Positions 1 through 37,782 of a stretch of DNA of 64,000 nucleotides are shown piece by piece. Position numbers and translations under genes: made by a program. Below the pieces are notes generated by a model, which searched no databases, was not told the DNA's origin, and saw only the letters and a list, made by a program, of their open reading frames with translations. The DNA comes from Halorubrum kocurii JCM 14978 (lineage in GTDB: Archaea > Halobacteriota > Halobacteria > Halobacteriales > Haloferacaceae): positions 1 to 64,000 of the forward strand of contig NZ_AOJH01000040.1 of assembly GCF_000337355.1 (NCBI RefSeq). The letters are read 5' to 3'. The number at the start of each line of letters is the position of its first letter. The stretch's first letter is position 1.

Positions 1-165
1 GGCGACTGACGAGGCTGGGGAGGCGTGAGGTGCTGTGCGGTTGCGGACGGCTGGGGCTTTGGCGGTGTTCACCGTCGATCCGGCAGCAGCGATTTAAAAG
101 TGACCGGCTGGGCCTTCGGAGGCGTTCGCCACCGAATCGGAAGTAACCACTTATAAACGAACGTA
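1..165 (+). repeat. Truncated copy A of a dispersed structured repeat
   Basis: The left edge carries the core gaggctggggaggcgtgagg at 11-30 followed by a GCTGTGCGGTTGCGG block, both shared with the copies near 21.6 kb and 37.4 kb. The middle segment of the other copies (the GGGACTCAAA block and the long stem) is missing. Position 46 onward joins directly to the CTGGGGCTTTGG 3' block seen in the 37.3 kb copy. A second, diverged version of that 3' block follows at about 105-140. The 5' part lies outside the window. No protein is supported here. Confidence 0.6.
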
Positions 166-21402: not shown

Positions 21403-21845
21403 GCGCCGGCGGATCCGAAGCGCGGCCCTCGTCATTTACGGCTGAACCGATGTTACGGTCGACAGTTCGGTCGAGCGAGTTTGCTACTCTGACGACTATT
21501 TATAAATGAACGAGGCGGTGGCGCGCTCCGGTAAGCGCCCACCGGGCGCGAACCAAGCCCGAGGGAGGCGGCGGGCCGGCGCGGGCGGAGTCGCGCCGGC
21601 CCGCTCGTTGAGGCTGGGGAGGCGTGAGGTGTGGTCGCTGTGCCGGGCGGGACTCAAAAGAGCAGTCGCGAGGGCCATCCCTGACGACGCAAGGACCGCA
21701 CCGAGTCACGCGAGCCGTCGCGGCTGCCCATTTGAGTGAGGACTACTGATCTGCACTCACTCATATATAAACAATCGTGTCGCCGACTGCGCCAAGAAGG
21801 AACCAACCGCAGAGTTAGACGTATGACGCCTGAGTTCGCGGACGG
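21403..21845. other. Intergenic region with repeat copy B
   Basis: There is no supported protein gene. Most of this 443-nt gap is the structured repeat (21498-21740), with an AT-rich stretch after it (21760-21780). ORFs across the repeat are artefacts of its GC-rich stems. Confidence 0.6.
21498..21740 (+). ncRNA. Copy B of the dispersed structured element, putative ncRNA
   Basis: A TATA box (ATTTATAAA, 21498-21506) precedes hairpin I (GGTGGCGC 21517-21524 with 21535-21543, one bulge). Next come GAGGGAGG and a 13-bp hairpin II (21571-21583 with 21592-21604). The core follows at 21610-21629, then GGGACTCAAAAG (21649-21660), and a stem GCAGTCGCG (21662-21670) with CGCGGCTGC (21719-21727) enclosing GACGCAAGGACCGCA (21686-21700). 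The 37.4 kb copy keeps the same order of elements but has different stem sequences. Function unknown. Confidence 0.55.
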
Positions 21846-37202: not shown

Positions 37203-37782
37203 ACGACACCGACGCGCCAGACTGCGGATTTCGATCGCTCGGCGCTGTTGAATTCCTGTGCTTCAGACGTATGTTCGTCCGAAACGGCTGGTCGCTGAAC
37301 GGTGCTTCGTGATCGACGACACTGTGGTGACTGCCTCCAAAGCCCCAGTCGCGGCGGCGGGCGCACGCTCGCTGCGGTCCTCGGTCGTTCGCTTCGCTCA
37401 CTCCCTGTGGTCCTTGCGTCCCCTGCGCCCGCCGCCGCGACTGCCCCTTTGAGTCCCACCCGACCGCAACCGCACAGCGCCTCATGCCTCCCCAGCCTCG
37501 TCGGTCGCCCTCCGCTCCGCTTCGGGCGACCGAATCCCTCGCACCGTCGGTGAGCGGCCCAAAGAGCCGCTCACCGGGGCGCGCCCGACGCACATCTTAT
37601 ATAAAGGATCGTCGCTATCGCGTGCCTCTTTTTAAATATCGCATCCGACTCCCAATCTGCAACACTCACTCCCGCTCTCGATCGCTGCTGTTCCCGTATG
37701 AACCGTCTCCGGAGCGAAACGCCTCACGCGCTACGGATTCCGACAGCGCCGATCTCTTAAGTCGGTGAGAGACGCCGCCGAC
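37203..37782. other. Intergenic region with repeat copy C
   Basis: This 580-nt gap is dominated by the structured element on the minus strand (37310-37606). Its right part (37607-37782) is less GC-rich, with a TTTTTAAATA stretch at 37629-37638, and shows no gene. ORFs over the element are artefacts. Confidence 0.6.
37310..37606 (-). ncRNA. Copy C of the dispersed structured element, putative ncRNA
   Basis: Read on the minus strand it begins with a TATA box (about 37606-37595). Hairpin I is a perfect 10-bp stem (37566-37575 with 37549-37558) and hairpin II another 10-bp stem (37524-37533 with 37501-37510). The core complementary to 37480-37499 follows, then GGGACTCAAAGG (about 37457-37446). 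A perfect 19-bp inverted repeat (37424-37442 with 37347-37365) encloses 58 nt containing GACGCAAGGACCACA. The 3' block CTGGGGCTTTGG comes last. The order equals copy B at 21.5 kb. Confidence 0.6.

Follow-up and report, generated by a model that had tools for sequence, protein, structure and literature searches.

Among described elements, those closest to the family reported here are the REP, BIME and REPIN elements, which are high-copy, non-autonomous intergenic hairpins with RAYT transposases (PMC3116915), and the PATEs, SMRs and MITEs of Haloquadratum, which are transposase-free, high-copy haloarchaeal repeats (PMC3119063). The stretch of Halorubrum DNA that we analyzed, 64 kb in length and referred to below as the window, carries three copies (A, B and C) of an element that proved, when copies were read side by side, to belong to a dispersed family with two modules, M1 and M2. 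Like the REP-type elements, M1 and M2 occur as singlets and as head-to-head inverted pairs and show long persistence with turnover (PMC3116915), but the modules are far larger and have internal loops. With the Haloquadratum repeats they share palindromes near the ends and the nesting of small palindromic inserts (PMC3119063). M2 elements of several lineages have the same terminal repeats as IS6-type insertion sequences and MITEs, together with 8-bp duplications, although those ends are missing from most M2 copies and from the window-genus copies checked. Covarying helices and conserved unpaired blocks are held in common with the structured RNAs of Rfam, none of which matched this family. We found no description of the element in open-access papers. 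Best supported, and in our judgment probable, is a non-autonomous repeat, present in high copy across the haloarchaea and selected for a fold of one strand; it is best read as REP/MITE-like, with transposase-free M1+M2 modules that have spread through intergenic DNA.

M1 consists, in order, of hairpin I, GAGGGA, hairpin II, GAGGCTGGGGAGGC and GTGAGG, and M2 of GGGACTSAAAGGGG, a stem ~13 bp long around GACGYAAGNACCGCA and GAGGANCGCAGCGAG, and then GGGGNCTTTS; the inner helix of M2 is bounded by GACGYAAG and GCAGCGAG, and 3' of M2, copies of the window genus have tail units of ~55-75 bp arranged in tandem. Two covariance models were used, R1 for the 5' half (141 positions) and R2 for M2, both of them built partly from copies in the window's own genome, with the M2 of copy C being one of the 20 sequences of R2. 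Copy B, on the plus strand, reads as follows: a TATA-like TTTATAAA (21499-21506, read from the sequence); hairpin I of M1 (21517-21562), with an inner helix beside an internal loop of the GA/GA type and outer pairs that are partly broken; the conserved, unpaired GAGGGA (21561-21566); hairpin II (21567-21609), the arms of which differ from copy to copy; the core GAGGCTGGGGAGGCGTGAGG (21610-21629); a variable, TGCGG-rich linker (21630-21648); and the M2 hairpin (21649-21734), which starts with GGGACTCAAA (21649-21658). The R1 match spanned 21517-21663 (E=7.5e-22). The M2 hairpin is degenerate, having an inner helix without its 3' half and GCCCATTTGAG in place of GGGGCTTTGG, and matched R2 at 52.9 bits (E=2.7e-9). 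Copy C lies on the minus strand, with the TATA-like TTTATATAA at 37597-37605 (again read from the sequence), M1 at 37443-37586 (hairpin I, GAGGGA, hairpin II, the core at 37499-37480 and the linker; R1, 96.9 bits, E=1.3e-25) and an intact M2 at 37338-37457 that has a GGACC/GGACC inner helix with an A.A mismatch (R2, 83.8 bits, E=5.5e-16). Copy A (1-57, plus strand) is cut at the 5' end and has M2 deleted, leaving the 3' arm of hairpin II, the core and the linker (an R1 match truncated on its 5' side, E=2.6e-6), and is followed by two tandem tail units of the CGGCTGGGGCTTTGG..GGTGTTC..CGATCCG..TTTATAA type (50-165, plus strand). Copies A-C are far above background, the rest of the window giving E values of ~0.02 or more against R1 and R2. 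The M1+M2 of copy C has an RNA fold z of -5.58 versus shuffles, and copy B folds more weakly (z=-3.2).

The earlier note on this DNA had described a block order shared by copies B (21498-21740, plus strand) and C (37310-37606, minus strand), and all of the blocks are present at those places. Its treatment of B and C as copies of one element can now be refined, in that they are two of ~85 copies, and B shows considerable wear, with outer pairs of hairpin I broken and half of the M2 inner helix lost. The closest own-genome relative of copy B, which was the only copy compared in this way, is 75% identical, and thus no recent jump of copy B is visible.

M2 without M1 is the usual form in most other genera (140 of 161 fetched loci), and outside the window genus M2 sometimes occurs as head-to-head pairs ~30 nt apart. 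The joint M1+M2 form was also seen in Haladaptatus, Halostagnicola and Halopiger. An autonomous form, with a gene lying between the two modules, was looked for and no consistent case was found. At several loci of one genome, G041 (L053, L057, L059-L062 and L065), M1 is joined to another 3' part, of the CTGACCCCTAGG..TTGCATGCCGCTAG type, rather than to M2, and these copies sometimes form tail-to-tail pairs; these joins suggest that M1 can be reused as a module of its own. Other copies depart from the standard form in smaller ways. Three M2 copies (L161, L187 and L198) are without the inner stem and have GGGACTGAAAGGGGCCG fused to the GGCTTTC type, a precise hairpin loss, and in a minus-strand copy (L014) the M2 stem is broken by a sequence that looks like an IS605-type end (GACTTGACATCCTCTCCGCCCTGAAGGGCG). 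At recurrent places within the hairpins of L010, L018, L021, L028 and L132 there are small palindromic inserts with GNA loops, which recall the SMR-A elements that are reported to target palindromes in Haloquadratum (PMC3119063).

In the own genome, a 3.6-Mb draft, R1 gave 86 M1 matches at E<1e-3 and 92 places at E<=0.01, R2 gave 50 M2 matches, and copy B used as a query identified 46 places, itself included. With R2, the numbers of M2 copies in five other genomes were 94, 114, 89, 76 and 69. Several contigs of this draft stop inside a copy or close to one (L011, L013, L016 and L024); the element therefore probably breaks assemblies, and the copy counts are low estimates. Many matches were obtained in all 34 congeners searched. 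The search of haloarchaeal genomes with covariance models that had been proposed in the earlier note extended the family well beyond the genus, with R1 matching 54 of 146 genomes of the order and R2 matching 47 of 295 genomes of the phylum, which belong to 27 genera of one order; no M2 was found by R2 in the sampled genomes of other orders of the phylum. Two genomes of the same family as carriers had no M2 (G173) or two weak R2 matches (G090). An 18-base M2 pattern compared with GTDB species genomes gave at least 80 loci, 79 of them haloarchaeal, among the matches listed. Partial matches were found in 17 plasmid records, 14 of which are haloarchaeal, the best-scoring being from Halorubrum salinarum. 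A search of phage sequences gave no match, which removes carriage by sequenced phages as a candidate.

The earlier note had claimed covarying stems on the basis of two copies, and the claim holds in larger sets. In an alignment of 15 copies of M1, 94.5% of the pair cells were paired versus 81.0% in shuffled data, with covariation of 0.376 versus 0.145 and both sides changed in 15 of 29 pairs. For M2 (20 copies) the corresponding values were 95.3% versus 74.1% paired and covariation of 0.519 versus 0.141 (and <=0.085 when slid), with both sides changed in 20 of 31 pairs. Since the sequences aligned were chosen by hand and also supplied the structures, broader tests were carried out on every parsable copy. 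Swapping the 3' arm of the M2 stem among 61 copies of other genera lowered pairing from 92.3% to 65.9%, and among 39 copies of the own genus and G041 from 94.7% to 68.4%; the M2 inner helix was paired at 95.5% versus 80.7% in the other genera and 91.7% versus 82.3% in the own set. The effect of arm swaps was weaker for hairpin II (87 copies; 0.76-0.79 versus 0.62-0.64, and without wobble asymmetry), for which mis-anchored copies are partly to blame. At a locus common to two species several double changes were present in the M2 stem, such as GCGGCGC/GCGCCGC to GCAACGC/GCGTTGC. Pairing of the stems is strongly supported by these double changes, and the helices covary beyond chance in the manner of structured ncRNAs. 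The M2 helices hardly vary in position or length, and the unpaired blocks are conserved and purine-rich.

Mismatches within the helices are unevenly distributed, with 30 G.T versus 9 A.C in the M2 stem and 26 T.G versus 0 C.A in the GACGYAAG/CARCGAG pairing, and such strand-asymmetric wobbles imply that one particular strand folds. RNA and single-stranded DNA alike would give this asymmetry. On the RNA side would count the covariation, the purine-rich unpaired blocks and the wobbles. A TATA-like motif was identified in 46 of 82 copies, mostly 13-17 nt 5' of hairpin I, as compared with 2 of 82 in a control window. In haloarchaeal promoters the usual distance from the TATA centre to the start is 25-27 nt, and at this spacing a transcript would lack the 5' arm of hairpin I, its start lying within that hairpin. 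The spacing argues against a transcription start at the fold and does not fit a simple promoter reading of the motif. Most of the apical loops are triloops of the form C(GNA)G. DNA mini-hairpins with a GNA loop on a G-C pair are described as extraordinarily stable (PMC4686876); these loops hint at DNA, and a folded DNA strand is consequently a live alternative to RNA. Comparison with Rfam, of the whole window at the gathering score and of five loci at a permissive threshold, gave no match on the element. A weak HgcC-like match near the tail end of a copy in L005 (1945-2023, minus strand; 30 bits versus a gathering score of 50) is probably due to chance.

Turnover was apparent at the site of copy B, where the upstream gene, which we take by the look of its sequence to encode a fumarase-type lyase, has a high-identity counterpart in 32 of the 33 genomes compared within the genus. 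At this site 29 congeners were viewed: no element is present in 26, and the remaining three have, respectively, a 5' remnant, a tail unit on its own and a different copy. The lone tail unit (L077, in G002) lies between direct repeats (GCCGTCACCGATTTATAAG), which suggests gain or loss of a unit via recombination between TATA-like repeats. Eight loci could be compared with a second species (G004): at five of them both species have the element, in most cases with stems that differ throughout, and at the other three G004 has none. With genes called by a simple GC3 rule rather than a trained caller, all 21 placements were between genes and 10 of the 21 were in convergent gaps, versus 17% expected (p=0.0014), an excess that, as expected, fits tolerated insertions. 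Between codirectional neighbors, three copies were in sense and four in antisense orientation (7 and 9 in a rougher count of another genome), and this absence of an orientation preference speaks against a cis-acting mRNA element.

Signs of mobility were seen in the metagenome-assembled genomes QS_9, QH_7 and SW_5 and in Halonotius, in which M2 lies within elements of 207-250 bp (one of 303) with the ends GGYRGTGTTCAGATA/TATCTGAACACYRCC. The 8-bp flanks of M2 elements were 52.8% identical versus 29.3% when shuffled (0/2000), and this was specific to the 8-bp register. In G016 the same ends bound an insertion sequence of 698 bp that encodes an IS6-type transposase (PF13610) and of which one copy has a perfect 8-bp duplication, GTTTCCGT. 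The M2 elements of these four lineages thus have the terminal repeats and 8-bp duplications of IS6-type MITEs and are without a transposase, and based on these ends and duplications we conclude that M2 rides in IS6-type MITEs in QS_9, QH_7, SW_5 and Halonotius. No credible case of such ends was found among 80 copies of the window-genus M1+M2, and we therefore infer the mobility of the M1+M2 form from turnover alone. The copies are extragenic, high-copy hairpins with some inverted doublets, as is typical of REPs and REPINs. Mobilization by a RAYT or other IS200-like enzyme was rejected because a Y1 transposase was not found in several high-copy genomes (none in G016, G058 and G073, with 76-94 copies, nor in G019 and G145), which indicates that this is not a RAYT-driven REP; a Y1 transposase is present in the low- or no-copy genomes G090 and G173. 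An origin from IS605 or PATE elements was likewise rejected, since in six genomes the termini of tnpB elements of the IS605 type carried neither M1 nor M2, and the family therefore does not qualify as a PATE.

The explanation nearest to the earlier note is a multi-copy, trans-acting ncRNA, in which M2 (~110 nt) or M1+M2 (~260 nt) would be transcribed at many loci and bind protein or RNA, mobility being mere gene dispersal. We consider this rather unlikely: the very strong covariation, the conserved purine-rich unpaired blocks, the strand-asymmetric wobble and the TATA-like motif in over half of the copies are in its favor, but the TATA spacing sets the start inside hairpin I, many copies are decayed, and the element is absent or nearly so in members of the same family (G173 and G090). 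What stands of the candidate ncRNA family of the earlier note is a real family with conserved unpaired blocks, covarying stems, no Rfam match and one strand that folds; what found no support is transcription from the TATA-like motif, the spacing of which does not fit. The behavior of the family, with 50-115 copies, a patchy distribution, turnover and, in some lineages, residence in IS6-type MITEs, is that of a mobile repeat.

Still less likely is a cis-acting element at 3' ends, a folded RNA that would protect, process or terminate transcripts between convergent genes. It would account for the excess of convergent gaps, and upstream stop codons sometimes appear, by eye, to lie within the TATA-like motif, but it is opposed by the near-equal codirectional orientations noted above, by the site of copy B not being conserved between species and by a 3' end without a T-run. 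A terminator was rejected as a candidate in view of there being no T-run at the ends of the copies read. Inverted repeats might also be kept perfect by mutation alone, through quasi-palindrome correction by template switching, so that the fold would have no function; paired double changes would arise likewise, and stems do differ wholesale between copies at one locus. Such correction sits poorly, however, with defined internal loops, mismatches and unpaired blocks kept across an order, with the asymmetry of the wobbles and with M2 helices nearly fixed in position and length, and we regard it as very improbable.

The reading we prefer therefore continues to be the non-autonomous repeat with a selected fold. 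The analysis establishes that the family exists, how numerous its copies are, that its stems covary, that copies turn over and that IS6-type ends occur together with target duplications; its spread may be pictured as follows. Enzymes acting in trans would propagate the copies, as judged by the terminal repeats and target duplications of M2 within IS6-type MITEs, and recombination between copies would also propagate the element. Copies would persist mainly where insertion harms little, such as in convergent gaps, and then decay. Folding of one strand, as RNA or single-stranded DNA, would keep the stems matched and may serve the maintenance or spread of the element. A simple MITE would not usually conserve an internal fold throughout an order, which could mean that there is a host function. 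A bolder possibility, offered tentatively, is that M2 is an expressed, protein-binding structured RNA of one archaeal order, present as 50-115 paralogous copies per genome and dispersed by MITE hitch-hiking and with M1, which would make it an archaeal equivalent of a SINE-like RNA family.

In many haloarchaeal genomes this element ranks with the commonest features between genes, yet it is without an Rfam model, and R1 and R2 now let annotators mark it. The family also offers a way to test how a non-coding repeat holds on to one internal fold throughout an order, with changing stem sequences and changing carriers. Transcription, if it occurs, would rank the copies with the most numerous RNA genes of the cells that carry them.
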